Assembly: GCF_037076455.1 (NCBI RefSeq)
Contig: NZ_AP028679.1
Span: 945,501 to 1,009,500, forward strand
DNA: 64,000 nt
From: Desulfoferula mesophila
Lineage (GTDB): Bacteria; Desulfobacterota; Desulfarculia; Desulfarculales; Desulfarculaceae
Reading direction: 5' to 3'
Positions 3,439 to 64,000 of this stretch are shown here, piece by piece. Position 1 is the first letter of the stretch. Each line of letters opens with the position of its first letter. The position numbers were made by a program, and so were the translations under genes. The notes below the pieces were generated by a model that had not been told where the DNA came from, did not search any database, and saw nothing but the letters and a program-made list of their open reading frames with translations.

Positions 3439-4467
3439 ATGCAAGAGCTTAGCAAAAGCCAAGTCAGGGCCATGCCCGCGGCGCGCGCTCTGGCGCGTGA
3501 AAAGGGCCTGGACCTGGCGGCCATAACCGGAAGCGGCCCGGACGGCTGCATCCTGGTCAAGGACGTTCAGGCCAGCCAGGCCGCACCGGCCCAGGCTCCG
3601 GCCTTGGCCGGCGCGTCGGCCAAGGTGACCAGCCTGGCCCGCAAGCTGGCCCAGCAAAAGGGCGTGGATCTTTCCGCCGTGCAGGGCACCGGCCCGCGCG
3701 GGCGCATCACCAAGGCGGACGTGCACAGAGCGGCCGCCGCTCCCGCCCCGGCGGCGGGCGGCGCCATCGCCGGCCAGAAGGTCCCCGCCACCTCCATGCG
3801 CAAGACCATCGCCCGGCGCCTGTCGGCCTCGGCCTTCACCGCACCGCACATCTATTTCTTCAGCGACGTTAAGATGGACTCCCTGCTGGCCCTGTACAAG
3901 GACATCAAACAGGAGATCCTGGAGCGCCACGGAGTGAAGATCTCGGTCAACGATCTCTTGATCAAGGCCGTGGCCCTTACCCTGGAAGAGTTCCCCCACG
4001 TCAACGCCTCCTTTGATGGTGAAAACATCGAGGTGTGGCAAGACGTGAACGTGGGGCTGGCCGTGGCCCTGGACGAAGGGCTCATCGTGCCGGCCATCGC
4101 CGAGGCCAACCTGGCCAGCCTATGGGAGATAGCCTCCCAGCGGGCCGACCTGGTGGACCGGGCCCGGGACCGCAAGCTGCAGGCCGACGAGATCGGGCGC
4201 GGCACCTTCACCATCTCCAGCCTGGCCCAGTACGAGATCACCCACTTCACGGCCATCATCAATCCGCCGCAAAGCGCCATTCTCTCGGTGGGCAAGACCC
4301 AGGAGAAGGTGGTGGCCGAAAACGGCCAGGTGGTGGTGCGCCAGGTGGCCACCCTGGGCCTGTCGGTGGACCACCGCATCATCGACGGCGCGGTGGCCGC
4401 GCAATTTTTGACTAGCCTGAAAAAGAAACTCGAACGGCCGGCGCTCATGTTCATGGAGCTGGGTTGA
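3439..4467 (+). CDS. Dihydrolipoamide acyltransferase (E2) with two subunit-binding domains and no lipoyl domain
   Basis: A 342-residue E2. Two peripheral subunit-binding domains are seen in tandem, residues about 10-45 and 62-98, each ending in a GSGPDG or GTGPRG turn. The catalytic acyltransferase domain spans about 115-342 and keeps the DHRIIDG active-site motif near 311-317. The usual N-terminal lipoyl domain with its DK-containing hairpin is missing: the protein begins directly with a binding domain. The complex's only visible lipoyl domain is at the N-terminus of the next gene product, E3. So the swinging arm must be supplied in trans. The frame is intact and the start has a GGGGAGG site, so this is an architecture and not a truncation artefact. 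Confidence 0.9.
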
Positions 4468-50120: not shown

Positions 50121-51047
50121 TCAATATTTTTGAGCCTGGCAGGCCTCGCCGGCTTCGCGCCACAAGGCCCAGAAGCTTTCCGGGTCGGCCAGCAAATAGT
50201 CGCGCATGGGCCTGCACTTGACGCGGAAAATATGGAAACGCGGGCTGGGCAGGCGCAGGGGGCACAGCGTTTCGAAGTTGGCCATGCCTTTGACCACCAT
50301 CAAATCGGCGCGGCCCACCAGGTCCTTGAACTCCTGTGACGCCCGCTCCCATTCCACCCCGGCGCCATCCACCCCGGTGTCCGCCAAATTAGGGAACATC
50401 GGCATCAGCCCGGAGGCCTGCAGATCTGGCCGGGTCAGGTCGTTGAGGGCGGGCCCTCCCTTCACCACCAGGAACACCCGCTCAAAATGACGGCTGAGAT
50501 GCCGGTACAGCGGCAGGTCGAAGAAAATCTCGCCGGCATTGTCGGTGAGATAAAGCGCCGTTCGGTGCCTGGTGGCCAGGAACCGCTCCAGCCGGGGGAT
50601 ATCGTCATGCTGCATGTCCACCCCGGCGGCAAGGACGCGCTCCACCTCGGCCATGGCCTCCTGCGGGGGCTTGAAAAAGTCCAGGCTGTTGCCCAAGGCG
50701 GCCAGCTTGACCAGGGAGGTCAAGTCCGCGCCGATCATTTTTTGCGCCCGGGCGGCGGCTCGCCTCCCGGTGGCTTGCTCCTGGGCCTTGAAGTTGCGGT
50801 AGGGGTCATGCACCCCGGTTTCCCGGCGGATGCCGCGCAGAATGCGGTTGGCCACTTCCGGCGAGGACAGGAGAGTGCCTGCGCTTTGGGCCATGGCCGC
50901 TCGCGCCGCCTGCTGGGCCCGGCGTAGCAATTCAGGGTCGCCTCCGGCGGCGAATTCCGCGGCGGTCGTGGTCAGATCTTCCAGGCACTGCCGGCACTGG
51001 GGAAAGGGCTTGAGCAGCCGGCCTTGTATAAAGGGTGAGGCTATCAT
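50121..51047 (-). CDS. DUF89/ARMT1-family metal-dependent phosphatase
   Basis: A 308-residue protein of the damage-control phosphatase family. Diagnostic pieces are the N-terminal CRQC pair, LTDNAGEIFFDLPLY, VVKGGPALNDLT, VVKGMANFETL and VKCRPM. These bind a divalent metal and a phosphorylated ligand; family members clear damaged sugar phosphates or related metabolites. It overlaps the upstream DUF2080-like gene by four bases. Confidence 0.87.
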   Translation of the reverse strand: MIASPFIQGRLLKPFPQCRQCLEDLTTTAAEFAAGGDPELLRRAQQAARAAMAQSAGTLLSSPEVANRILRGIRRETGVHDPYRNFKAQEQATGRRAAARAQKMIGADLTSLVKLAALGNSLDFFKPPQEAMAEVERVLAAGVDMQHDDIPRLERFLATRHRTALYLTDNAGEIFFDLPLYRHLSRHFERVFLVVKGGPALNDLTRPDLQASGLMPMFPNLADTGVDGAGVEWERASQEFKDLVGRADLMVVKGMANFETLCPLRLPSPRFHIFRVKCRPMRDYLLADPESFWALWREAGEACQAQKY

Positions 51048-51304: not shown

Positions 51305-53659
51305 CTATTCCTTCTTCTGTTTCTTAAACGCCTGGTAGACGCGTTCGGGGGTCAGGGGCGTTTCATCGAGCACCAGGCCGGTGGCGTTGCGCACCGCGTT
51401 GAGGATGGCCGGGATGGTGGGCATGATGGCTCCCTCGCCCACCTCCTTGGCCCCGAAGGGCCCATTGGGCTCGCCGGACTCCACCACGATGCACTTGGTC
51501 TCGGGCATGTCCATCACCGTGGGGATGTGGTACTCGCCCAGGCTGGGATTGATGATGCGCCCCTGGGAGTCGAATTTCACCTCCTCGAAAAGCGCCTCGC
51601 CCAGGCCCATGGACACCGAGCCCTGCATCTGGGCCTCCACGCTGGTCAGGTTCACCGCCTGGCCGCAGTCGTGGGCGTCCGTGATGCGCTCCACCTTGAT
51701 CTGGCCCGTCTCGAAGTCCACGCTCACCTCGGCCACCTGGGCCGAGCAGCCGTAGGCCGGGCTGGTGCCCACCGCCGCGCCCTTGTACTTGCCGCCCAAG
51801 ACCGGAGGCTTGTACTTGCCCGTGGCCACCACCGTGCCCCGGCGCAGGTAGGCCAGGCGCGCCGCCTCGCGGAAGGTCAGCTCGTCGCCCTCCGGCGGGT
51901 CCGGCCAGCCGCGGTGCTCCTTGATGTAGCCCGTGCGGATGGCGCTGAAGTCCACCGGATCGCCGCTGATCTTGATCCGGCCCTCCTTGATGTCCAGGCG
52001 GCTCTGCTCGATGCCCAGCTCCTGGGCCAGGGTCTCCAGAATCATGGCCTTGAGGTTTTCCCCCGCCTCCTTGGCGGCGTGGCCGGTCATCAGGGTGGTG
52101 CGCGAGGAATAGGCCCCCAGGTCGATGCCGAAGTCGGTGTCGCCGCTCTTGACCCGCACCTGCTCGTAGTCGATGCCCACCGCCTCGGCGGCGATCATGG
52201 CCATGGTGGTCTCAGAGCCCTGGCCGATCTCGGCCGAGGCGGTGTAGAGCAAAATGCCCCCGCCGTCCTCGTCGGCCTTGATGATGATGGTGCAGTGATA
52301 GGTGTCGCTGCGATAGATGGGATAACCCGCGCCGGAGACGAAGAAGCCGCAGGCCACGCCGATGCCCTTGCCCGGCGGCAGCTTGCCCTTTTTCTCCGCC
52401 CAGCCGGAGCCGGTTTTCACCGCCTCCAAACACTCGCGCATGCCCAGGCTGCTCATGGCCAGGTCGTTGCAAGTAACGTCCCCGGTCTCCATCATGTTCT
52501 TCAGGCGAAGCTCGATGGGGTCCATGCCCAGCTTCTCGGCCACCAGGTCCAGCTGCTGCTCGAAAAGACCCCGGGCGATAACCCCGCCGTGGCCCCGCTG
52601 GGCCCCGCAGGCGGGCTTGTTGGTGTAGATGCGCTGGCCCTGGTAGCGCATGTTGGGCAGCTTGTAGGGGCCGCCCAAGAGAGAGCCGGCGTAGTAAACC
52701 GTGGCGATGCCGAAGGAGGAGTAGGCCCCGCCCTCCAGCGTGGCCTGGTGGTCCAGGGCCATCAGGGTGCCGTCCTTCTTGGCCCCCAGCTTCATGTGGT
52801 GGGTGAAGCCGTGGCGGGCCCGGCTGAAAAGAAACACCTGCTCCCTGGTGTAGGCCATGCGCACCGGACGCCCGGTCTTGATGGCCAAAAAGCTCGAGGC
52901 CAGCTCGATGGGGGTGGCCGAGGCCTTGGGGCCGAAGCCGCCGCCCACGTAGGGCTTGGCCACCCGCACCCGGCTCATGCCCAGGCCGGTGACCATGGCC
53001 ACGGTGCGCTGCACGTAGTGGGGCACCTGGGTGGAGCTGTGCAGGTTGAGCACCCCGTCAGAGTCCACCAGGGCCACGCACTGGTTGGGCTCGATAAAGG
53101 CCCCGTCCTGACGCTTGGAATAAAAACTGCCCTCCTGGATGATGTCGCACTCGGCGAAGGCCGCCTCCACGTCGCCAAACTCCTGCTCCACCTTGGCGCA
53201 GACGTTGTCGGGAAATTCGTCGTGGATCCAGGGAGCCCCCTCGGCCATGGCCTCCTCCACCGTGAGCAGCACCGGCAGGGGCTCGTACTCCACCTCGATC
53301 AGCTCCACCGCCTTGAGCGCGGTGGCCAGATCCTCGGCGGCCACCGCGGCGATCTCGTCGCCCACGTAGCGCACCCGGTCCTTGGCGAAAAGATTCTCGT
53401 CGTAGCGGGCCGGCGACACCCCGTACTTGATGTCCGGCACGTCCTGGGCGGTGATCACCGCCACCACCCCGGGCAAAGCCTGGGCTTTGGAAATGTCGAT
53501 GCTCTTGATCTTGGCGTGGGCCTGGCTGGATTGCAGCATGGCCCCGGCCAGCTCGCCTACGAATTTGAGGTCCTCGATGTAGCGGGCCTTGCCCGTGGAC
53601 TTGTCGGGGGCGTCCTTGCGGGCCGCCCGGCCTCCGATTACCGAGAAGTTGCCGCTCAT
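51305..53659 (-). CDS. Molybdenum hydroxylase, large (molybdopterin) subunit
   Basis: A 784-residue xanthine-dehydrogenase-family large subunit. The N-terminal (aldehyde oxidase a/b hammerhead) domain covers 1-130; the Mo-cofactor domain carries GGGFGPKAS, CGAQRGHGG and GQGSETTMAMIAAEA. The catalytic glutamate is expected in GAKEVGEGAIMPTIPAILNA. It forms a hetero-trimer with the iron-sulfur and FAD subunits encoded just upstream. The order and the CGAQRGHG loop recall 4-hydroxybenzoyl-CoA reductase and related aromatic-CoA hydroxylases; substrate remains open (see FAD subunit). Confidence 0.9.
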   Translation of the reverse strand: MSGNFSVIGGRAARKDAPDKSTGKARYIEDLKFVGELAGAMLQSSQAHAKIKSIDISKAQALPGVVAVITAQDVPDIKYGVSPARYDENLFAKDRVRYVGDEIAAVAAEDLATALKAVELIEVEYEPLPVLLTVEEAMAEGAPWIHDEFPDNVCAKVEQEFGDVEAAFAECDIIQEGSFYSKRQDGAFIEPNQCVALVDSDGVLNLHSSTQVPHYVQRTVAMVTGLGMSRVRVAKPYVGGGFGPKASATPIELASSFLAIKTGRPVRMAYTREQVFLFSRARHGFTHHMKLGAKKDGTLMALDHQATLEGGAYSSFGIATVYYAGSLLGGPYKLPNMRYQGQRIYTNKPACGAQRGHGGVIARGLFEQQLDLVAEKLGMDPIELRLKNMMETGDVTCNDLAMSSLGMRECLEAVKTGSGWAEKKGKLPPGKGIGVACGFFVSGAGYPIYRSDTYHCTIIIKADEDGGGILLYTASAEIGQGSETTMAMIAAEAVGIDYEQVRVKSGDTDFGIDLGAYSSRTTLMTGHAAKEAGENLKAMILETLAQELGIEQSRLDIKEGRIKISGDPVDFSAIRTGYIKEHRGWPDPPEGDELTFREAARLAYLRRGTVVATGKYKPPVLGGKYKGAAVGTSPAYGCSAQVAEVSVDFETGQIKVERITDAHDCGQAVNLTSVEAQMQGSVSMGLGEALFEEVKFDSQGRIINPSLGEYHIPTVMDMPETKCIVVESGEPNGPFGAKEVGEGAIMPTIPAILNAVRNATGLVLDETPLTPERVYQAFKKQKKE

Positions 53660-53662
53660 GAT

Positions 53663-54139
53663 CTACGCCTCGCTCATCTTGGCGGCGGCGTCACTCACCG
53701 CCTCCACGATCTTTTCATACCCGGTGCAGCGGCACAGGTTGCCCGAAAGACCCTTGGTGATCTCCTCCCGGCTGGGCTGCGGGATAACGTCCAGCAGCGC
53801 CTTGGCCGAAAGGATCATGCCCGGGGTGCAAAAGCCGCACTGGATGGCCCCGGCGTCCACAAAGGCCCGCTGCAAGGGATGCAGCTCGCCACCGCTGGCC
53901 AGCCCCTCGATGGTCAGCACCTCCCGGCCCTGGGCCTGCAGCGCCAGCACCAGGCAGGAATTGACCGTCTCGCCGTCCAGGATCACCGTGCAGCAGCCGC
54001 AGTCGCCCACCCCGCAGCCGTGCTTGGTGCCGGTGAGCCCCAGCTCGTCGCGCAGCAGGGAGGTGAGGGTCTGATTGGGCTCCACCAACGCCTGGCGCAC
54101 CACGCCGTTTACCGTAAGGGTGATGGCTTGCTTGCTCAT
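53663..54139 (-). CDS. Molybdenum hydroxylase, [2Fe-2S] small subunit
   Basis: A 158-residue protein with the start at ATG 54139. Two [2Fe-2S] clusters: the plant-ferredoxin-like set HGCGVGDCGCCTVILDGE plus one further Cys, and the second set CGFCTPGM with CRCTGY. All eight cysteines are present. It passes electrons between the Mo and FAD sites. Its ATG overlaps the stop of the FAD gene (ATGA), so the two are co-translated. Confidence 0.93.
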   Translation of the reverse strand: MSKQAITLTVNGVVRQALVEPNQTLTSLLRDELGLTGTKHGCGVGDCGCCTVILDGETVNSCLVLALQAQGREVLTIEGLASGGELHPLQRAFVDAGAIQCGFCTPGMILSAKALLDVIPQPSREEITKGLSGNLCRCTGYEKIVEAVSDAAAKMSEA

Positions 54140-55029
54140 GCTTGCGCCTCCTCGTTGCCTTGGGCCTGGGCCAGGGCCTGCTTCAGGGCCCGCTTGGTCA
54201 GGGTACGCACCATGTCCCGGCGGTAGGCCGCCGAGCCCCTGTGATCGTCGATGGGTTTGGCGTCGGCCGCCGCCGCCTCCGCCGCCGCCTCGATGGCCGC
54301 CTCGTCGGCCGCCCGCCCGGCCAGCGCCTGGGCCGCGCCCGGCGAGAGCAGGGGAGTGGGAGCCACCGCCCCCAGGGCCACCCGGGCCTCCTTGATGGTG
54401 GACCCGTCGTCCTCCAGCATCACCACCGCCGCAACGTTCACCAGCGCGATCTCCATCGCCTGGCGAAGGCCAAGCTTCTGGTAGCCGGCTCCGGAGCCCT
54501 CGGCGGGCTTGGCAATCTTCAGTCCGGTCAGCAGCTCGCCCGGCCGCTTGGCGGTCAGGCCCGGCCCCTGGAAGAACTCCTGCAACGTCACTTCGCGCGA
54601 CCCGTCCGGACCGGCCAGCATCGCCTTGGCCCCCAGGGCCAGCAGCGGCAGGCACATGTCCGCCGCCGGGCGGGCGGTGCACACGTTACCGCCCACGGTG
54701 GCGCGGTTGCGCACCTGGGGCGAACCCAGGGCCCCGGCCCCCAAGGCCAGAACCTTGGCCGCGCCGGTGAGCTCGCCGCTGGCCGCCAAGGCCGAAGCGC
54801 TTAGGCGTGGTCCCACGATCAGCGAACCGTCGGCCGAGCTAAACTCATCCAACCCGGCAATACCCTCAAGGCCCACCAAGTGCTGCGGAGACAGCTTCTT
54901 GTGTTTCATGTTGACCAGCAGATCGGTGCCCCCGGCGATTATCGCCGCCTGGCCACCGTACTGCCCCAGCATCTCCAGCGCCTCGGCCACGCTGGCCGGC
55001 TGGTGATAGCTGAAACTGGGTAAAAGCAT
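54136..55029 (-). CDS. Molybdenum hydroxylase, FAD-binding subunit
   Basis: A 297-residue CO-dehydrogenase-flavoprotein-family subunit. IIAGGTDLLVNMKHK (residues about 30-45) is the FAD motif, and GSPQVRNRATVGGNVCTA the second. Only two cysteines are present, both in the NVCTARPAADMC segment. The FAD subunit of 4-hydroxybenzoyl-CoA reductase carries an extra insert with four cysteines for a [4Fe-4S] cluster; no such insert is here. So the enzyme is a related aromatic or heteroaromatic hydroxylase, or a reductase with another electron path (inference). Confidence 0.92.
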   Translation of the reverse strand: MLLPSFSYHQPASVAEALEMLGQYGGQAAIIAGGTDLLVNMKHKKLSPQHLVGLEGIAGLDEFSSADGSLIVGPRLSASALAASGELTGAAKVLALGAGALGSPQVRNRATVGGNVCTARPAADMCLPLLALGAKAMLAGPDGSREVTLQEFFQGPGLTAKRPGELLTGLKIAKPAEGSGAGYQKLGLRQAMEIALVNVAAVVMLEDDGSTIKEARVALGAVAPTPLLSPGAAQALAGRAADEAAIEAAAEAAAADAKPIDDHRGSAAYRRDMVRTLTKRALKQALAQAQGNEEAQA

Positions 55030-55072
55030 GTTCTTGGCCTCCCAAATAAGATGATTGCCGCCTGCGACGCAG

Positions 55073-55639
55073 CTAATGCTCGCCCCAACGCTGGAATAGG
55101 TTGTGCTCCACGCCCAACAGGTCCAGCGCCTTGCCGATACTCTGGTGAATCAGGTCTTGGATGCTCTGGGGCCGATGATAGAAAGCCGGCACGGGCGGCA
55201 GAATCACCGCACCGTTATCGGCCGCTCTGCTCATCAGTTCAAGATGACCCTTGTGCAGCGGCGTTTCGCGTACCATAAGCACCAAGGGCCGCCGTTCTTT
55301 CAGCGTCACGTCGGCGGCCCGGATCAGCAGGTTGTAGTTGAATGAGTTGGCTATGGCCGAGAGCGTCTTGATGGTGCAGGGGGCCACCAGCATTCCCCGG
55401 TGGAGGAAGGAACCGCTGGCGACCGCGGCGCCCACGTCCGAAATTTCGTGGACCCGCGTGGCCATGGCCTTGACCTCGTCCACCGAGTATTGCGTCTCTA
55501 TGGCCAGGTTGCGGGCGCCCGCCTCGCTCAGGATGAGATGGCAGGGCTGCCCCAGGCCTTGCAGCACCTTGAGCGCCTCCACCCCGTAGATGACCCCGCT
55601 GGCTCCGGATATACCCACTACTAAAGGTAGCTGCGCCAA
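55073..55639 (-). CDS. ubiX: UbiX-family flavin prenyltransferase
   Basis: A 188-residue flavoprotein when read from the TTG at 55639; a GTG at 55708 is an alternative start with a weaker ribosome site, so the N-terminus is not settled. GISGASGVIYG binds FMN, then VAPCTIKTLSAIANS and REtPLHKGHLELM (core REtPLHKG) are the UbiX signatures. It makes prenylated FMN for UbiD-type (de)carboxylases. No UbiD gene is in the window; one should be nearby outside or elsewhere. UbiX homologues are part of known phenol clusters. Confidence 0.9.
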   Translation of the reverse strand: MAQLPLVVGISGASGVIYGVEALKVLQGLGQPCHLILSEAGARNLAIETQYSVDEVKAMATRVHEISDVGAAVASGSFLHRGMLVAPCTIKTLSAIANSFNYNLLIRAADVTLKERRPLVLMVRETPLHKGHLELMSRAADNGAVILPPVPAFYHRPQSIQDLIHQSIGKALDLLGVEHNLFQRWGEH

Positions 55640-55747
55640 GACCTCCCTCGCTTTCCAGTTTCCGCCTGCCGCATGCTCAAGCCCGCAGGGCGCGGCAGAG
55701 GATTTCACCCTGCCGGGGGTAGTGCCGGAAACATCCCGCCATTCGCC

Positions 55748-56419
55748 TCACGCCGCGTGCCCGCAAGTTTGCACGGCGTCGGTTTTTTCGAATATCTTGT
55801 AACCGCCTTGTTCCAAGGCCTTGGCCACGACTCCCACGTCGGTGCCGCCGTCGAAACGCAGGATGATCCGTTTGTCCGTCACGTTGGGCAGGCGCATGGT
55901 GAAAACGCCGTGCAAAATCGCGCCGGTATCCTCCACCAACTTGGACACCTTGCTGATGGTGCCGCTCTCCAGGGGCAGAGCCTCCAGGGTGATGCCGCAC
56001 CATACTTCGTTGGCCCCCAGGATGCTGCTCAGGGCCGAAAAAAGTTCCAGCGAGGAAACCATGCCCACCAACTTCCCGTTTTCCATGACCGGGTAGTTGC
56101 GGATCAAGTCGTCTTGGCCCTTGAGCATGCAGTATTCCACCGAGTCACCGGCTTCCACCGTCTTGGGCATGCGGGTCATGATGTCCCTGATCTTCAGGCG
56201 GTTCAAGAAGTACTCGGTTTCATACTCGCTCTGGGCCCGGGCCACGGCGGTAGCGCATCCTTGCAATTCCTTGCGGGTCACCAAACCTCGCAGTTCGCCT
56301 TGGTCGATCACCGGCAGAGCCCGCAGGTTATTTTCCAGCAGTAAGGCGATGGCATCCGCCACCAAGGTCCCGCTCTCCACGGTTATCGGGTCCCTCTCCA
56401 TCCAATTGCGCAGAATCAT
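55748..56419 (-). CDS. Tandem CBS-domain protein with ACT-like C-terminus
   Basis: A 223-residue cytosolic protein. Two CBS domains lie at about 1-65 (MILRNWMERDPITVESGTLVADAI) and 75-135 (IRDIMTRMPKTVEAGDSVEYC); both quoted cores: MERDPITVESGTLVAD and MTRMPKTVEAGDS. The C-terminal 75 residues look like an ACT-type regulatory fold. In anaerobic phenol degraders a CBS-domain protein is the third, stimulating component of phenylphosphate synthase, so this is the analogue by position. It abuts the Nudix gene with no gap. Confidence 0.85.
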   Translation of the reverse strand: MILRNWMERDPITVESGTLVADAIALLLENNLRALPVIDQGELRGLVTRKELQGCATAVARAQSEYETEYFLNRLKIRDIMTRMPKTVEAGDSVEYCMLKGQDDLIRNYPVMENGKLVGMVSSLELFSALSSILGANEVWCGITLEALPLESGTISKVSKLVEDTGAILHGVFTMRLPNVTDKRIILRFDGGTDVGVVAKALEQGGYKIFEKTDAVQTCGHAA

Positions 56420-56977
56420 CTAAACCCTCCCCGAAAGCACTCCGGCCTGGCTGGCCAGGCCCAAGGCCATGACGCTCATGGCGTTGTGAATTTCGCCGTC
56501 GGCCAACAGCCGCTCCAGTTCGTCGGGCGCGACCAGGACCACCTCTATATCCTCGCCCGCATCCTGCTCCTGGGCCCCGGTGGGCACCATCCCGGTTGCC
56601 GCCACAAAGTGGACCCGGTTGGCCAGAAGGGCGGGCTGGGGCCAGTAGCTGCCCAGGTCGCGCGTTTCTCCGCCGGCATAGCCGGTTTCCTCCTTTAGCT
56701 CGCGGAGGGCGGCCGCCACCGGGTCCGGGTCCGTGGCGTCTAGAAGCCCTCCGGGCACCTCCAGCCCGATTCGGCGGCTGGCGTGGCGGTATTGCCGGAC
56801 CATGATTAGCCGGCCCTGGCTGGTCAGCGCCACGATCTGCAGCCAATCGGGCATGTGCACCACATAAAAGTCCCGTTCCTGGTCGGTGCGCGGCGAAAGG
56901 GCCCGGTCGCGGGTAACCGAGAACAGACCGACCTCGGCTACCGGTTGCGAGCTTAGCAAGGGCCATGCCTTGGTCAT
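56420..56977 (-). CDS. Nudix hydrolase (ADP-ribose pyrophosphatase-like)
   Basis: A 185-residue Nudix protein. The Nudix box is imperfect: the catalytic REL-KEETGY part is intact, but the first glutamate of the box is replaced and spacing differs by one residue (GGLLDATDPDPVAAALRE). The upstream RRIGLEVPGG helix fits ADP-ribose/NDP-sugar hydrolases. Nudix genes occur beside phenol-activation genes in other degraders. Role unknown. Confidence 0.85.
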   Translation of the reverse strand: MTKAWPLLSSQPVAEVGLFSVTRDRALSPRTDQERDFYVVHMPDWLQIVALTSQGRLIMVRQYRHASRRIGLEVPGGLLDATDPDPVAAALRELKEETGYAGGETRDLGSYWPQPALLANRVHFVAATGMVPTGAQEQDAGEDIEVVLVAPDELERLLADGEIHNAMSVMALGLASQAGVLSGRV

Positions 56978-56978
56978 G

Positions 56979-58220
56979 CTATGACGCCGCTCCTACGGTC
57001 TCCAGGGGCAACAGCTCCACAAAGGCCTCCACCACCGCCTCGCCGAAAGCGACGTCTTCCAGGTTTGCGTCCACTTCGCGCAGGGTGATTTCAGGCTTCA
57101 GGTTGGAGCGAAGTTCTTGGGTGAACAGACGGTCTTCTTCCGGCGCGTATACCGATCCGCCTTCGCGGTCAAAGGAGCACCAGCCCTTGGTGGGCATCAT
57201 AAAGGTCACCGGGCCCTGGGCTTGGTTCAGCTTGGCCGCGAAGGCTCGGGCCACTTCTTTTAGCTCTTCCGGGTCGAGGCGCAAGAAGGTTCTCAGCTTG
57301 TCCAGGTCGTACTTGCGCCGCTCGTAGTAATCGGGCTTGTAGCGCGACTTGCGCGGGCTCATCAGGTTCACGCCGCTGGGGGCGATCACCTGGGGGATGC
57401 CTCGTTTGCCCGCCGCCTCCAGGCGGTGGGGCCCGGCGGAGCGCATGCCGCTCATGATGTGTTCGCCCACCCCGCCCGGGGCCAGGTCCACCACCCCGGC
57501 GAAGTAGCCCTGGGCGATCATGTCCTCCATGGCCCGGTCGCAGACCCCGGCGGCGGAGAAGCCGATCACCTGGTAGCCCTTTTCCTCCAGCTTCATGCGC
57601 ACCAGGTGGGCGCAGTGCTCGCAGGGCCCGAACATGCTCATGGCCACCAGGGCTTGGCCCTTGACCGACTCGGGGTTCACGGTCGGCACCTTGGCCAGGC
57701 CCAACGCGGCGGCGGCGGCCCGGTCCAAGACGCTGGTCAGCAGGGGCGAAAGCCCGGCGATCTCCACCACGGTATGGAACAAGAGCAGGTCCCCCGTGTC
57801 AATGTAGCGGGTGGCCAAGCCGGGCAGCGCGGCGGTGGAGGAGACCATGAGCTTGGGCAGTCCGAAGGGCAGGGCCCGCATGACCTCGGAGGCCATGAGC
57901 GAACCGGTGGAGCCGCCCAGGCCCACCACCGCGTCCAAGCTCCCTTTGGCGAAGCGCTCCGCCGCGAGGTTCACCGCGCCCTGGATCATGGCAGCGGTAA
58001 TTTTGGCCCGCTCCCGTGAGGCCCGGATGTCTTCTATTTTCCAGCCGGCGGCGGCGGCCACTTGCCCGGGCGGGATCTCGCACGTCTGGCCCGAGTCCGC
58101 TCCCATGGACAAGTCCATGAGTACAACCTCCGCGCCGCCTTGTTCCATGCGTTCGCGCAAGTAGCGGGTTTCCTGGTGCTTAGTGTCCAGGGTGGATATT
58201 AGCAGCACCGTGGGCGGCAT
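56979..58220 (-). CDS. Tm-1-like ATP-binding protein (UPF0261)
   Basis: A 413-residue protein of the UPF0261 family. It opens VLLISTLDTKHQETRYLRER and has VGLGGSTGSLMASEVMRALP and APSGVNLMSPRKSRYK, typical of the family. Tm-1-type proteins bind ATP in the N-terminal part and carry a TIM-barrel-like C-terminal part in relatives; bacterial members have no known reaction. Its conserved place inside this catabolic operon, one base from its neighbours on both sides, suggests a pathway role. Confidence 0.85.
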   Translation of the reverse strand: MPPTVLLISTLDTKHQETRYLRERMEQGGAEVVLMDLSMGADSGQTCEIPPGQVAAAAGWKIEDIRASRERAKITAAMIQGAVNLAAERFAKGSLDAVVGLGGSTGSLMASEVMRALPFGLPKLMVSSTAALPGLATRYIDTGDLLLFHTVVEIAGLSPLLTSVLDRAAAAALGLAKVPTVNPESVKGQALVAMSMFGPCEHCAHLVRMKLEEKGYQVIGFSAAGVCDRAMEDMIAQGYFAGVVDLAPGGVGEHIMSGMRSAGPHRLEAAGKRGIPQVIAPSGVNLMSPRKSRYKPDYYERRKYDLDKLRTFLRLDPEELKEVARAFAAKLNQAQGPVTFMMPTKGWCSFDREGGSVYAPEEDRLFTQELRSNLKPEITLREVDANLEDVAFGEAVVEAFVELLPLETVGAAS

Positions 58221-58221
58221 G

Positions 58222-59874
58222 TCAGGCCTTTTCCCTAGCCAGCTTGGCCGCGATGTCTTTTTTGAGGTCTTCCTTGTTGATCTTGCCGGAGTCGCCCACC
58301 GTGGGCATGTCTTCGACGATCTCCAGGCGCTCGGGCAGCTTGTACTTGGCGATCTGCTTGCTCAGCAGGAAATCGACCATGTCCTTGAAAGCGAATTCGG
58401 CGCCCGGCTTGGGCACGACGTAGGCGCAGGTCTTCTCGCCCATCTCCTCGTCGGGCATGCCCACCACCGCCACCGAACCCACGGCCGGATGGTTGTTGAG
58501 CATGCCTTCGATCTCGGCGGGATAGATGTTTTGACCGCCGCGGATGATCATGTCCTTCTTGCGGCCCATGATCCACAGGCACTCCTTGTCCAGCTTCACG
58601 ATGTCGCCGGTGGTGCTCCAGCCGTCCGGGTTGAAGACCGTGGACGTCAGCTCCTCGTCGCGATAATAGCCGGCCGGAGCGTGGGGGCCCCGGAACCACA
58701 GCACCCCGGGCTCGCCGTCGGGCACCTGGTTGCCGTCGTCGTCCAGCAGCTTGACCACGTTGCCCGGCAGGGGGCGACCCACCGAGCCGCGCCGCACCTC
58801 CACCGAATCGGTGACCCGGCAGCCGCTCACCGAACCCACGTCCTGGGTGCCCAGGTCGCTGGTGATGGCCGCGCCGAAGCGCTCTTCGGCCTCGGAGGCC
58901 ACCTTGGGAGGCAGATAGCCGCCGGCGGAGCGGATGAAGCGCAGGTTGGACAGGTCGTAGGACTCGATATCCTCCTCCAGCATGCGCACCAGGTGGGTGG
59001 GCACCACCCCGATGGCCGTGACCTTTTCCTTGGCCATGACCTCCAGGGCCAGGCGGGGATCAAACTCCTCCAGCATCACCGTCTTGGCCCCGGCCATGGG
59101 CGCGGCGAAGTAGGTCAGGGTGCCGGCCGCGCCGCCGGCGTGGGGGGCCACCGCCATGGTGATGTCTTCCTTGTTCAGGTCCCAGATGTCGATGCGCCCC
59201 TTGGCGGTGCACACCCTGGAGGCGATGGGCCACTCCACCAGCTTGGGTATGCCGGTGGTGCCGGTGGTGGTGGTCAACAGGGCCACGTCGCCGGTGGTGT
59301 CCAGGCGGCGAGAGTCCAAGAGAGCCTGATCGATTTTGCCCAGGTATTCCTGCGCGGTGGTCACCAGGCTCTTGGTGCCCTCGGGCGCCGCCGCCGGCAC
59401 ATCCTCATCGAACAGGTAGACCTGCTTGAGGCTGGGGAACTTCTGCATGAAGCCCTTGTACATTTCCAGATAGTCGAACTTGCGGTACACGTGGGGGATC
59501 ACCACCATCGAGGCCTGGGTGAGCTCCATCATGTATTCCAGCTCGCGCTGGCGCAGATAGGGGTACACGGTCAGGGAGATGAGCCCGGCCCGCTCGGCGG
59601 CGATGCGGGCCAAGAAGCCGTAGACGCTGTTGGGCGACTGGATGATAACCCGGGCATCCTTGGGCAGCCCGCCCGAGGCCCAGGCCGTGGCGATGGCGTT
59701 GGTCAGGTCTTTGGCCTGGTTCCAGGTGACTCTGTAGCGCGAGTCCACCAAGGCCTCGCGGTCGCCCAGTTGGGCCGCGTTGCGATCATAGAAGTCAAAG
59801 AAGGTCTCATCGGTCCAAAAGCCGTTGCCTTTGAACTCGTCGATCATCGCTTGGGTGTATCGGATTGGTTTCAT
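58222..59874 (-). CDS. AMP-forming CoA ligase, aromatic-acid type
   Basis: A 550-residue ANL ligase. The ATG at 59874 has AAGGAGG upstream and is preferred to a start 63 bases earlier. P-loop LTTTTGTTGIPK near residue 190, WSTTGDIVKLD near 405, and RGGQNIYPAEIEGMLNNHP close to the end with the terminal catalytic-lysine segment DSGKINKEDL. It is related to benzoate/hydroxybenzoate and dihydroxybenzoate-adenylating ligases. It likely makes the CoA ester that the molybdenum hydroxylase uses. It differs strongly from the ligase at 28307. Confidence 0.9.
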   Translation of the reverse strand: MKPIRYTQAMIDEFKGNGFWTDETFFDFYDRNAAQLGDREALVDSRYRVTWNQAKDLTNAIATAWASGGLPKDARVIIQSPNSVYGFLARIAAERAGLISLTVYPYLRQRELEYMMELTQASMVVIPHVYRKFDYLEMYKGFMQKFPSLKQVYLFDEDVPAAAPEGTKSLVTTAQEYLGKIDQALLDSRRLDTTGDVALLTTTTGTTGIPKLVEWPIASRVCTAKGRIDIWDLNKEDITMAVAPHAGGAAGTLTYFAAPMAGAKTVMLEEFDPRLALEVMAKEKVTAIGVVPTHLVRMLEEDIESYDLSNLRFIRSAGGYLPPKVASEAEERFGAAITSDLGTQDVGSVSGCRVTDSVEVRRGSVGRPLPGNVVKLLDDDGNQVPDGEPGVLWFRGPHAPAGYYRDEELTSTVFNPDGWSTTGDIVKLDKECLWIMGRKKDMIIRGGQNIYPAEIEGMLNNHPAVGSVAVVGMPDEEMGEKTCAYVVPKPGAEFAFKDMVDFLLSKQIAKYKLPERLEIVEDMPTVGDSGKINKEDLKKDIAAKLAREKA

Positions 59875-60064
59875 TTGTCTAGAGCCTCCTTGCCTGTCCG
59901 AGGGCGTAGTTGTCCCTTTGAGGTCGGTATGCACCACCCCATTTTTCGTGTCTTACTGCGCCTGGGTTTGTCGGCTGTGCGGGCCTTGGCAGCCTTATTT
60001 CATGGTTCTTTTCAGACTATCCGCCACCCTCTGGCCATCCGGTACCTCCTTCGGGGTTGGTACC

Positions 60065-61150
60065 TTAAGAGAGTTTTTTACCCATCATGAGATTGGACAA
60101 GATGTGATCCATGGCCGTCTTTTTGGGGCCTTGGGTCGGCGTTTTGTCCTGGTCTTTGCAACTCCATACGGTTTCCGGCCGGCTTTGCAGGATGAACACG
60201 TTGCCGGTCTTGGGCATGTCCTTGTCCACCGCCCATTCGATGTCCTGGGGGCAGCCGTAATGTTGTTCGATGACCTTGCCCATGCGGGCCAACTCCAAGA
60301 CGTCCTTGTCTATGGTGGATTGGGCCATCTGCCGCTCCTTGGGCAGGGTCAGCTTGCGCGAGCAATGCTCGGCCGGCTCCAGGGTGTAGTAGACTTCCTT
60401 TTTGGAGATGGTCCTCTCCAGGATTTCCATGCTCACCTTGTCGACCCGGAAGTTGTCCGGGGTGACCTCGCCGGAAACCACCGACTCTCCGAAACCGAAG
60501 TTGGAATCGATGACGATCATGGAGCGGTCGCCGTTGCCCGGATTCAGGGTGAACATGACACCGGCGGTGAAGGCGTTGGCCATCTTCTGGATGCCCACGC
60601 TCAAGGCCACTTCCTCCTGGGCGAAGCCCATTTTGATGCGATAGGCGATGGCCCGGGCGGTGAAGAGGCTGGAGAAGCACTTGCGTACGTGCTCCAACAC
60701 CGACTCCACGCCGCGAATCCACAGGAAGGTTTCCTGCTGCCCCGCGAAGCTGGCTCCGGGCAGGTCCTCGGCGGTGGCGCTGGAGCGCACCGCCACCGGG
60801 GTGGCGGGCAGTCCGCAAATCTTGGACAGGCGGCGATAGTATTCGGCTATGTGGTCTTCCAGATCAACCGCGATGGGGCAGGATTCGATCAGGCCCCGGA
60901 TATAGTCACTGGCCTGATCCAGGGCCGCGGAGTCCTCGTGATTCAGGCCCTCCAGCGCCTCTTTGATCTTGCCGTCTAGCCCCCCGTCGCCGATGAAACG
61001 CCGATACGCTTCGGTGGTGATCGCATAGCCAGGGGGGACGCGAATACCCGCATTGATCAACTCGCCCAAAGAGGCGTTTTTGCCGCCCACCAGCGGCACC
61101 GAGTCCTTGTTGCACTCTTGAAACCAGCAGACCAGAGGTAATTGGGCCAT
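60065..61150 (-). CDS. PEP-synthase-like ATP-binding subunit (phenylphosphate synthase PpsB-like)
   Basis: A 361-residue protein equal to the N-terminal, ATP-grasp half of PEP synthase. VGGKNASLGELINAGIRVP at the start (start chosen at ATG 61150), then VRSSATAEDLPGASFAGQQ and the late FILQSRPETVWS are the PPDK_N signatures, including the arginines that hold ATP phosphates. It lacks the swivelling histidine and PEP/pyruvate domains. The partner encoded upstream supplies the histidine. In phenol degraders, the matching 40 kDa subunit transfers phosphate from ATP. Confidence 0.9.
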   Translation of the reverse strand: MAQLPLVCWFQECNKDSVPLVGGKNASLGELINAGIRVPPGYAITTEAYRRFIGDGGLDGKIKEALEGLNHEDSAALDQASDYIRGLIESCPIAVDLEDHIAEYYRRLSKICGLPATPVAVRSSATAEDLPGASFAGQQETFLWIRGVESVLEHVRKCFSSLFTARAIAYRIKMGFAQEEVALSVGIQKMANAFTAGVMFTLNPGNGDRSMIVIDSNFGFGESVVSGEVTPDNFRVDKVSMEILERTISKKEVYYTLEPAEHCSRKLTLPKERQMAQSTIDKDVLELARMGKVIEQHYGCPQDIEWAVDKDMPKTGNVFILQSRPETVWSCKDQDKTPTQGPKKTAMDHILSNLMMGKKLS

Positions 61151-61258
61151 GTTCGCTCCGCAGTGGCTTGTCACTGATAGCCGTGGGCGCCTTGTCCGCG
61201 GCAAGCAAGTTGATTTCGCCGAAGCCCGGCCGCCCCGGCGGGGCGGCCGGGCAAGTAC

Positions 61259-63106
61259 TTAACGTTCCAGGATGGTCACCTTTCCGGTGCCACCATCCAC
61301 CTTGATTTTCATGCCGGTCTTGATGATGCTGGTACCGTGGCCGGTGCCCACCACCGCGGGCAAGCCGTATTCGCGGCACACGATGGCCGCGTGGCACATG
61401 ACGCCGCCCACGTCGGTGACCGCCGCTTGGATCTTTTGGAAAGCCGGAGCCCAAGAGGGCGAGGTGGTGGGGGCCACCAAGATCTCGTCCTCTTTGAGCT
61501 GGCCGATCTCGGCCACGGTGCGGCACACCCGGGCGAAGCCTTCCACCACGCCGGGGCTGCCGGCGAATCCCTTGAGCTGGTTCACCGATTCGGGGTCGCC
61601 GGCCGCATCCACCTCGGCCCAGGCGTTGAGGGACTCGTTGGTGACGCCCCACAGGACCACGGTGAAGGGCTCCTGGATCACTTCAGGCGCGGTGCCCACG
61701 GCCGCGGGAGGAGTCCACTCGCGGAACTTGTCCATGACTCCCTTGCGCCAGGCGATCTCCTTGGGCCATACCTGGGGGCCGCGCGGCTTGACGCCGGTGG
61801 CCCAGGCGGTGACCACGTCCCACAGGGCTTCCTTTATTTCGGCCCGCGTGAGGTACCAGACGTCCTCGATTTCTTCGATGAATCCATAGTCCATGAGAAT
61901 GGCCGCGACTTCGCGCATCTTGTTCCAGAACACGGAATGGAACCAGTGCTCCACGTAGAACAGATGGTTCTCGACGTAGGGGAACACGGTGCGGGCGGTG
62001 CCCAGAAGCTGTTCGAAGCCGGCCTTGGTCTCCTCGTCAGCCAACAAAGCGCGGTATTCCTCGGTGATGCGGTCACGCTCCTTGATGACTTGGTCCATGG
62101 GCCGTTCGATGGGCTTGCCGGCCCTGACCTTGTCAATGTAGATGCACAGGGAAGCCAGGGGGATGTCCAGGTCGTCGTTCCAGGATTTGTCATGGTGGTA
62201 CCAGCCGGTGCCGGTGGAGGTCCAGAACCAGGGATAGCGGGCCTTCTCAAAGGCGTTCAGCCATTCCTTGCCGTTGGACGTGGCCTCCAGCTCGTCCTTT
62301 ATCTCGACGAACTTTCTTCCGGAGTTGACGATGCCGTCCACATTGAGATCAACCGCCGCCCGGGCCAGTTTCTTGAGCTCTTCATCGGGCCGGTACATGA
62401 TCACGTCGATGCCCGAGACCATCTGAGTAACCCGCTGCAGGGGGATATCCGGGAACACCTTTTGGCAGAAATCCAGGAAGGTCACGTATGCGGCGTAACC
62501 CAGGTTCAAGAACTCGAAGTGGTATTGCCAGCAGAGCAGGCCCAGATCGATCAACTTGTCATAGGCATGGAGTAGCTCATAGCCCGTGGACTTGCCCAGG
62601 CCCTCCATGACGACCGATATGTCTTCCAGCTCGGGGAGGGGCTTGATCTCGAGGGCTTCCAGGTCAGATATGACCTTCTCGAGCTTTTTGATCCACTGAT
62701 CTTCCAGCTTGTTCCAATTCTCGTAGTAGTAGCCGGCCCTCTCCATGAAATGGGCCACCCGGGCCTCGACTTCGGCGGGGTCGGTCACCGGCACCGGCGA
62801 GATGTAGATGTAGCCGTTGATGATGCGGTGATCCACGCCATAAACGGGGGGCACCGCGAAAATGCGGGTGTTGAACTGAGACAGGGCCAGGTACCAGGCC
62901 TCGTCCCAAATTATGTCAAAGGGGTAGATAGGCTCGGGATAATGCAGTCCGTCATAAAACCAGAACATCCCCTTTTCGTACTGTTCGCGCTCCGGGTCGT
63001 CGGTCACGAACTGGTACTGATAAGGGAACATCCGTTCCCAACCTTCAGTGCCGGGTATTTTTTCTACCTCGTGAGGATCAGGAAATCTCCGTTTGCTCTC
63101 GCCCAT
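61259..63106 (-). CDS. PEP-synthase-like phosphohistidine subunit (phenylphosphate synthase PpsA-like)
   Basis: A 615-residue protein. Residues 1-520 are largely helical and resemble the substrate-holding region of phenylphosphate synthase, with no PEP/pyruvate-binding barrel. The C-terminal swivel domain (about 525-615) holds the phospho-acceptor His572 in GGVMCHAAIVCREYG. Length (about 70 kDa) and order match the large subunit of phenylphosphate synthase, in which phosphate passes ATP to His to phenol. The same plan is seen in rifampicin phosphotransferases, so another hydroxyl compound is also possible. It is first in the operon, 350 bases from a divergent LysR gene. Confidence 0.88.
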   Translation of the reverse strand: MGESKRRFPDPHEVEKIPGTEGWERMFPYQYQFVTDDPEREQYEKGMFWFYDGLHYPEPIYPFDIIWDEAWYLALSQFNTRIFAVPPVYGVDHRIINGYIYISPVPVTDPAEVEARVAHFMERAGYYYENWNKLEDQWIKKLEKVISDLEALEIKPLPELEDISVVMEGLGKSTGYELLHAYDKLIDLGLLCWQYHFEFLNLGYAAYVTFLDFCQKVFPDIPLQRVTQMVSGIDVIMYRPDEELKKLARAAVDLNVDGIVNSGRKFVEIKDELEATSNGKEWLNAFEKARYPWFWTSTGTGWYHHDKSWNDDLDIPLASLCIYIDKVRAGKPIERPMDQVIKERDRITEEYRALLADEETKAGFEQLLGTARTVFPYVENHLFYVEHWFHSVFWNKMREVAAILMDYGFIEEIEDVWYLTRAEIKEALWDVVTAWATGVKPRGPQVWPKEIAWRKGVMDKFREWTPPAAVGTAPEVIQEPFTVVLWGVTNESLNAWAEVDAAGDPESVNQLKGFAGSPGVVEGFARVCRTVAEIGQLKEDEILVAPTTSPSWAPAFQKIQAAVTDVGGVMCHAAIVCREYGLPAVVGTGHGTSIIKTGMKIKVDGGTGKVTILER

Positions 63107-63454: not shown

Positions 63455-64000
63455 ATGAACCTCAATCAACTGCTCACCTTCTTTCATGCCGCCGAGGCCA
63501 TGAATTTCTCCCAGGCGGCGGAGACGCTCAACGTCACCCAGCCGGCGGTGAGTGCCCAGATCAGGAATCTGGAGGAAGATTTAGGTGTCAAGCTTTTTGC
63601 CCGTCTGGGCAAGAAGCTGGTCCTCACCGAACCGGGCGACGTCCTGTTGGCCCATGCCCGCAAGATATTCAAGCTGGAGGAAGAAGCGGCCCAGGCCATC
63701 AAGCAAATGCGCCTGGTGAAAAAGGGGACCTTGAAGCTGGGCACCGCCCGCACCTATGCGCACACCATAATTCCGCCCCTCCTGGCCCGCTTTCAGAGCA
63801 ATTACCCCCTGGTCAACATCGTCCTGATCGAGGGCAGCTCCCGGGAGATGGCCCGGCGCTTGTGGTCGCTGGACATCGAGGTGGCGGTCATCGCCGCTCC
63901 GGGCCGGGTGCGCAGGGTCGACTTCAAGTTTTTCCGCAGCGAGGAGTTGACCCCCATCGTGGCGCCGGAGCACCCCTTGGCCAACAAAAAGGACGTTCCG
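63455..64000 (+). CDS. LysR-family transcriptional regulator, C-terminus cut by window edge
   Basis: 182 codons are visible and the frame stays open to the last base. The helix-turn-helix is near 1-60 (MNLNQLLTFFHAAEAMNFSQ, then AAETLNVTQPAVSAQIRNLE); the co-inducer domain begins at about 90 and is incomplete. It is divergent from the pps-like operon and is its probable regulator. The mRNA appears leaderless, with no ribosome site before the ATG. Confidence 0.92.
   Translation, partial: MNLNQLLTFFHAAEAMNFSQAAETLNVTQPAVSAQIRNLEEDLGVKLFARLGKKLVLTEPGDVLLAHARKIFKLEEEAAQAIKQMRLVKKGTLKLGTARTYAHTIIPPLLARFQSNYPLVNIVLIEGSSREMARRLWSLDIEVAVIAAPGRVRRVDFKFFRSEELTPIVAPEHPLANKKDVP

Follow-up and report, generated by a model that had tools for sequence, protein, structure and literature searches.

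A ten-gene operon of Desulfoferula mesophila raises the question of how an aromatic compound can be degraded by a gene set that resembles anaerobic phenol activation but seemed to lack a carboxylase, and that contains a gene for a Tm-1-like (UPF0261) protein. The operon occupies positions 51305 to 63106 of the 64,000-nucleotide stretch analyzed here (contig NZ_AP028679.1, positions 945,501 to 1,009,500), hereafter called the window. As judged from sequence comparison, the best explanation is phenol degradation via phenylphosphate by a known kind of gene cluster in a probable sulfate reducer, to which we assign a probability of about 0.8. The phenol pathway itself is already known; the new part is the variant in which the Tm-1-like gene, TM1a, is found instead of that for the HAD phosphatase PpcD. 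Among the literature matches listed, no paper was found that joins Tm-1-like or UPF0261 proteins to phenol or to anaerobic aromatic metabolism.

Operon structure and proposed phenol activation

Pfam and NCBIfam searches recovered all ten genes of the families named in the original prediction, head to tail on the minus strand, in the 5' to 3' order PPSA, PPSB, LIG, TM1a, Nudix, PPSG, UbiX, HCRB, HCRC, and HCRA. The nominal intergenic gaps are 54, 127, 1, 1, 0, 39, 43, -4, and 3 bases; five of the nine junctions thus lie between -4 and 4, which agrees with the short gaps and overlaps noted previously, and the genes are presumably cotranscribed. The first two gaps become wider with the likelier start codons, i.e., ATG at 61150 for PPSB (361 amino acids) and ATG at 59874 for LIG (550 amino acids, preceded by AGGAGG).

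PPSA (61259-63106; 615 amino acids; PF00391; NF006152 with 1,097 bits versus a cut-off of 723) comprises the mobile domain of phosphoenolpyruvate (PEP) utilizers, with the phosphohistidine H572 located within GGVMCHAAIVCRE. This residue is invariant in all 17 aligned relatives, and its counterpart in Thauera aromatica is His569 (PMC7500099). The ATP-binding half is encoded separately by PPSB (60065-61204; PF01326), and the cluster also contains the CBS-domain protein PPSG (55748-56419; PF00571), homologues of which sit directly after PPSB in Aromatoleum loci. The three proteins can be assigned by these features to the alpha, beta, and gamma subunits of a phenylphosphate synthase, and the proposed ATP-dependent activation of a hydroxylated aromatic compound by such an enzyme is supported. 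A grouping of the pair with ordinary PEP synthases, which would have spoken against this assignment, was not found: in a quick tree with long-branch warnings, PPSB falls on a starred branch separate from the six PEP-synthase-like proteins encoded in the same genome, and the reading as an ordinary PEP synthase was rejected. One row of the tree (L099), labelled PEP-synthase-like but originating from a distant PPSA-like locus, falls among the PPSB side. Matches to PPSA occur in five of the 63 genomes of the class including its own, the other four being 93%, 85%, 76%, and 75% identical; the identity to the protein of Dethiosulfatarculus sandiegensis is 76%. In a different genome, two phenylphosphate synthase clusters of different PPSA clades are located consecutively on one contig (L082 and L083, G108:C329).

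Activation of aniline by the phenylphosphoamidate route, or of a different hydroxylated aromatic (catechol or a cresol, for instance), with phenol merely as a side substrate, is an improbable alternative. It draws on Desulfatiglans anilini, whose aniline-activating related pair also accepts phenol in vitro (PMC7500099). We took genome G240 as that of D. anilini because four of its predicted proteins have the published masses of 50.501, 39.928, 52.240, and 51.922 kDa, whereas the mass of phenylphosphate synthase alpha differs (70.380 kDa with the start chosen here versus 70.027 kDa published). Read in order, its aniline cluster on contig C56 has genes for an HCRA-like protein and a PEP-utilizer protein, then a homologue of PPSB, a UPF0261 gene, and a homologue of LIG, and after these a second alpha-like gene and UbiD; the UPF0261 gene and the LIG homologue are shared with the window locus. 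This order fits the published genes 03866-03872, of which 03869 would be the UPF0261 gene. However, the two alpha-like proteins of this cluster score only about 105 bits each against PPSA, compared to 533 bits for the protein of the phenol cluster (phe), and PPSA shares about 69% identity with proteins of several named Aromatoleum genomes. These comparisons speak against aniline, and much less against other phenols. One open reading frame (ORF) of the aniline cluster (L226, 984-3140) combines a PEP-utilizer domain with a response-regulator receiver domain.

The carboxylase gene beyond the window edge

According to the original prediction, the lack of a UbiD gene pointed to a changed downstream route. 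Within the ten-gene unit the observation stands, since Pfam detected no UbiD, but it does not hold for the locus. Inspection of the sequence beyond base 64000 (genome base 1009500) revealed a UbiD ORF at genome positions 1010218-1011627 (plus strand), which starts 718 bases past the window end and directly follows the gene of a LysR-type regulator (window 63455-64000, plus strand; 294 amino acids) that is divergent from the operon and crosses the edge. The carboxylase was apparently lacking because the window ends before this adjacent gene. The UbiD profile PF01977 has five matches in the 4.48-Mb single-contig genome, four of them above the cut-off, and the adjacent gene represents the second-best one (231 bits at 1010512-1011123), with all three UbiD domains present. 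In a FastTree phylogeny with long-branch warnings it falls into one clade with PpcB (02059) of D. anilini.

Next to UbiD follows a second Tm-1-like gene, TM1b (genome 1011732-1012910, minus strand). A comparison of neighborhoods showed that the order Tm-1-like gene, UbiD, LysR, and PPSA onward is kept in G048 of the same genus and G060 of the same family, and in L062 (Dethiosulfatarculus) and L063 the UbiD gene is located within the operon. The premise of a route without UbiD therefore falls, and this reading, for which the composition of the ten-gene unit had been the argument, is now scarcely credible. Beyond TM1b, a stretch with A+T-rich third positions (L006, 4510-6146) and a transposase-like ORF pair, IS3-type by eye (L006, 6412-7520), were observed. 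Two further UbiD genes of the same genome, at most 17 kb apart (L008, 348-1790, 3391-3957, and 15057-16445), branch at a distance from the UbiD of the phenol locus in the phylogeny, and one of them lies near an ORF that is UbiX-like by eye.

Distribution of TM1a and PpcD

Homologues were mapped around PPSA, and a gene was scored as present at 50 bits or more, irrespective of its strand and of its position within the fetched sequence, which extended over up to about 20 kb. PpcD denotes a match to the HAD protein (Pfam) of Aromatoleum buckelii locus L145, which was named by its place. The 80 named loci represent the top 80 among 400 confirmed relatives, and the sample thus leans to close relatives. 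The PPSA tree comprises 135 rows, leaving out L100, L101, L102, L116, and L198, which duplicate contigs already included, as well as L183, which has almost no sequence after PPSA. Presence was counted in 89 of these rows, i.e., without loci that have less than 7.5 kb after PPSA (L113 among them) and without the distant L097-L099.

In the 89 loci, TM1a-type genes and PpcD exclude each other: 51 have TM1a only, 28 PpcD only, 10 neither, and none has both. The number of UbiD genes is one in 47 and two in 4 of the TM1a loci, and three in 25, four in 2, and two in 1 of the PpcD loci. A first count, which took in any UPF0261 gene, covered 88 loci with no less than 7.5 kb of sequence behind PPSA. It did not include L083, a locus overlapping L082 on the same contig (both are in the 89-row count), and yielded 52 loci with UPF0261 only, 26 with PpcD only, 8 with neither, and 2 with both. 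The two exceptions, L185 and L199, hold only UPF0261 genes nearer TM1b.

The PPSA tree requires at least 13 changes for TM1a and 11 for PpcD, and differing modules occur with closely related PPSA proteins, e.g., L130, L174, and L178 among PpcD-bearing neighbors. Among 11 independent tree pairs that differ in TM1a, PpcD differed in the opposite direction in 7.1, in the same direction in 0, and not at all in 3.9 (averages; median p of 0.016, range 0.001-0.125); for the 82 rows with UbiD in view, the corresponding values were 9.5, 0, and 1.5 (median p of 0.002). Fisher tests on the module counts ignore kinship and were not relied on. The UbiD tree also sorts largely by module: 24 rows group with the UbiD of the window locus and PpcB of D. 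anilini, 42 rows come from Tm-1 loci or loci with neither gene, and three further groups (34, 34, and 28 rows) consist almost entirely of sequences from PpcD loci. A small number of additional UbiD rows from Tm-1 loci are placed outside these groups. In the loci examined, a TM1a-type gene hence usually accompanies single-UbiD clusters and excludes PpcD. Its presence in the operon, previously regarded as an addition to the known gene set, is real as an observation, but the gene is no oddity.

Fold and possible role of the Tm-1-like protein

TM1a (56979-58220; 413 amino acids), a MarK-like protein as set out below, combines PF06792 and PF23189 and belongs by these domains and its fold to UPF0261. 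Its AlphaFold2 model (mean predicted local distance difference test score of 90.7) matches both Tm-1 (3wrw, Z 41.5) and 9mpy (Z 33.9) over the full length; the root mean square deviation of 7.6 from 9mpy suggests that the domains are differently set. By sequence, the best relative in the Protein Data Bank (PDB) is 9mpy (E value of 1.6e-57), which is also nearest for the proteobacterial type, whereas TM1b is nearer plant Tm-1. UDP-GlcNAc 2-epimerases, with a fold match over one domain (Z of about 13), were not accepted as kin.

The PDB title identifies 9mpy as Saro_1862 from Novosphingobium aromaticivorans in complex with acetovanillone. Acetovanillone catabolism of this bacterium begins with the single-component kinase MarK (PMC13101465), and we infer that Saro_1862 is probably MarK. 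If so, the TM1a-type UPF0261 fold would be that of an aromatic kinase. This conditional kinship, together with the absence of PpcD from TM1a loci, suggests that TM1a serves the single UbiD by handling the phosphoryl group; in Thauera, the counterpart of PpcD restores the carboxylation of phenylphosphate (PMC6114531). A role in phosphoryl handling in the place of PpcD is possible, and we put it forward tentatively. Somewhat less likely is the more general proposal that TM1a-type proteins are the phosphoryl-handling partners of single-UbiD aryl-phosphate carboxylases, whose MarK-like fold would bind phenylphosphate and take over the phosphoryl group, and that they were repeatedly exchanged in evolution for a module of extra UbiD proteins and a HAD phosphatase as in enzymes of the Thauera/Aromatoleum type. 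In the boldest form of this proposal, the Tm-1-like protein would run in reverse, ADP would be the phosphoryl acceptor, and part of the activation ATP would be regained, which is doubtful since phenylphosphate is a weaker phosphoryl donor than ATP.

The same kinship could also indicate a second, forward aryl kinase that acts independently of the carboxylase, with either some other phenol or phenol itself as its substrate, the latter at the expense of one ATP per turnover. The bound acetovanillone in the nearest PDB relative and the MarK-dependent start of acetovanillone catabolism fit such a function, provided that 9mpy is indeed MarK. A forward kinase alone, however, leaves the absence of loci with both TM1a and PpcD unexplained, and we regard it as rather unlikely.

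Predicted pathway from phenol to benzoyl-CoA

The proposed phenol route would start with the phosphorylation of phenol to phenylphosphate by the three synthase subunits. The single UbiD, supplied with prenylated flavin mononucleotide by UbiX (55073-55708, with an uncertain start codon; NF004685 with 237 bits versus a cut-off of 188), would carboxylate phenylphosphate to 4-hydroxybenzoate, most likely with TM1a handling the phosphoryl group beside it, where Thauera and Aromatoleum have the HAD phosphatase PpcD. The AMP-forming aryl-coenzyme A (CoA) ligase LIG (58222-59937; PF00501), which has its best PDB matches in 2,3-dihydroxybenzoate-AMP ligases, would turn 4-hydroxybenzoate into the CoA thioester. 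The ring hydroxyl would then be removed by a molybdenum hydroxylase composed of the flavin adenine dinucleotide (FAD) subunit HCRB (54136-55029), the [2Fe-2S] subunit HCRC (53663-54139, with a 4-base overlap with HCRB), and the molybdopterin subunit HCRA (51305-53659). The resulting benzoyl-CoA could enter the ring-opening pathway, whose hydrolase BamA is encoded elsewhere in the genome (510 bits versus a cut-off of 464). Since DsrA is encoded as well (583 bits versus a cut-off of 393), a sulfate reducer with a benzoyl-CoA ring-opening step is likely.

Distribution of UPF0261 proteins

PPSA and UPF0261 occur together in 61 of the 395 genomes of the phylum, PPSA alone in 10, UPF0261 alone in 29, and neither in 295 (E values up to 1e-40 for PPSA and up to 1e-3 for UPF0261; numbers not corrected for kinship). 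The genome of D. mesophila has only two UPF0261 matches, both at the phenol locus, and one of 14 control genomes (Haloferax volcanii) has UPF0261. A further 20 UPF0261 loci were inspected; of their source genomes, 19 lack a PPSA match at 1e-40 and one (G048) has it. By best score, which is a rough way to split the two types, 14 of them hold only genes nearer TM1b and six hold genes nearer TM1a. The TM1a-nearer genes of L232, L233, and L239 occur alongside UbiD, ligase, or phenylphosphate-synthase-like genes; in L229, L231, and L246 no such genes were seen at the locus, except for a weak ligase match and HCR-like genes in L231. The surroundings of most of the 20 loci show no phenol-cluster genes.

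Observations that weaken the interpretation

Several findings weigh against a phenol cluster in which TM1a assists the carboxylase. All three molybdenum hydroxylase subunits score below the NCBI cut-offs for 4-hydroxybenzoyl-CoA reductase; for HCRA, the corresponding family TIGR03194 is the top match, with 848.5 bits versus a cut-off of 994.55. HCRB comprises 297 amino acids with 2 cysteines in total and lacks about 35 residues relative to the 324-residue FAD subunit of 1rm6. In 4-hydroxybenzoyl-CoA reductase, the FAD subunit carries a [4Fe-4S] cluster in an insertion, and the stretch absent from HCRB is presumably this insertion, of which HCRB shows neither the length nor the cysteines. The electron path of the molybdenum enzyme may hence differ from that of 4-hydroxybenzoyl-CoA reductase. 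HCRB of D. anilini has one cysteine, and several other homologues are also short and cysteine poor, whereas those of L077 and L080 have more cysteines. Because of the scores and the short HCRB, ring dehydroxylation is only inferred. Carboxylase subunits of D. anilini made 4-aminobenzoate in vitro without a Tm-1-like protein (PMC7500099), which is therefore not strictly needed there. UPF0261 genes also occur in other surroundings, so that UPF0261 taken as one family is not specific for aromatic metabolism, which argues against a simple story. The TM1a-only definition was adopted after the two exceptions of the first count had been seen; when any UPF0261 gene is counted, as was done at first, the tree pairs number 6.5 opposite, 1.0 same, and 3.5 undiffering (median p of 0.125). 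Finally, L105, L113, and L179 have a single UbiD and LIG, and no UPF0261 or Tm-1-like gene was seen in their fetched loci.

Accessory and flanking genes

The Nudix hydrolase gene of the operon (56420-56977; 185 amino acids; PF00293) was found in some relatives only. Downstream of the operon, at a distance of 257 bases, lies a gene with an ARMT1-like (DUF89) phosphatase domain (window 50121-51047, minus strand). It was dropped as a candidate substitute for PpcD in view of this location and of the search of the window and L060-L199, in which the other match was only a weak one in L098.

Comparison with known systems

The molybdenum enzyme resembles 4-hydroxybenzoyl-CoA reductase (1rm6) as a three-subunit member of the xanthine oxidase family with HCRA nearest its alpha subunit, but differs in the shorter, two-cysteine FAD subunit and the lower scores. 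Saro_1862 is a full-length homologue of TM1a with the same fold (about 32% identity); it serves acetovanillone catabolism, whereas TM1a is likened to it by sequence and fold only. With the pps-ppc cluster of Thauera (composition taken from PMC6114531) and Aromatoleum, the window shares the alpha, beta, and gamma synthase genes and UbiX. The Aromatoleum loci contain three genes of the UbiD type and one for a HAD protein, which was taken as PpcD from its position and fold, in contrast to one UbiD and a Tm-1-like protein at the window locus. In the 19 kb examined there, to which the search for PpcD was confined, neither a second UbiD-like subunit nor a match to the Aromatoleum PpcD was detected.

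The closest parallel is the phe cluster of D. anilini, for whose enzymes higher abundance was reported with phenol than with benzoate (PMC6114531). Its gene order, i.e., UbiD, LIG, TM1a, UbiX, HCRB, HCRC, HCRA, PPSA, PPSB, and a PaaK-like ligase, fits the published numbering 02059 down to 02049. The window locus has a closely similar gene content, with a PpcB-clade UbiD, LIG, a Tm-1-like protein, UbiX, the HCR genes in the order B-C-A, and the alpha and beta synthase genes, and a further Tm-1-like protein (by sequence) is encoded beside both clusters. It differs in the additional CBS gamma and Nudix genes, the absence of a PaaK-like ligase in the 19 kb examined, a PPSA identity of only 42%, and the location of UbiD across the LysR gene. 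The counterparts of LIG in D. anilini are 02058 and the putative 4-aminobenzoyl-CoA ligase 03870. A third D. anilini locus encodes a protein with the mass of ppc-alpha 03563 together with PPSA and a TM1a-type gene.

The studies on D. anilini do not settle how carboxylation proceeds in clusters without all Ppc subunits, for which a different mechanism was suspected, or how a sulfate reducer with its low energy yield can bear the cost (PMC6114531 and PMC7500099). Our comparison points to one gene, that of the TM1a type, which is present in the phe and aniline clusters and beside ppc-alpha 03563, while Tm-1 and UPF0261 have no occurrences in the main texts of both papers. The role of the Tm-1-like gene thereby becomes directly testable.

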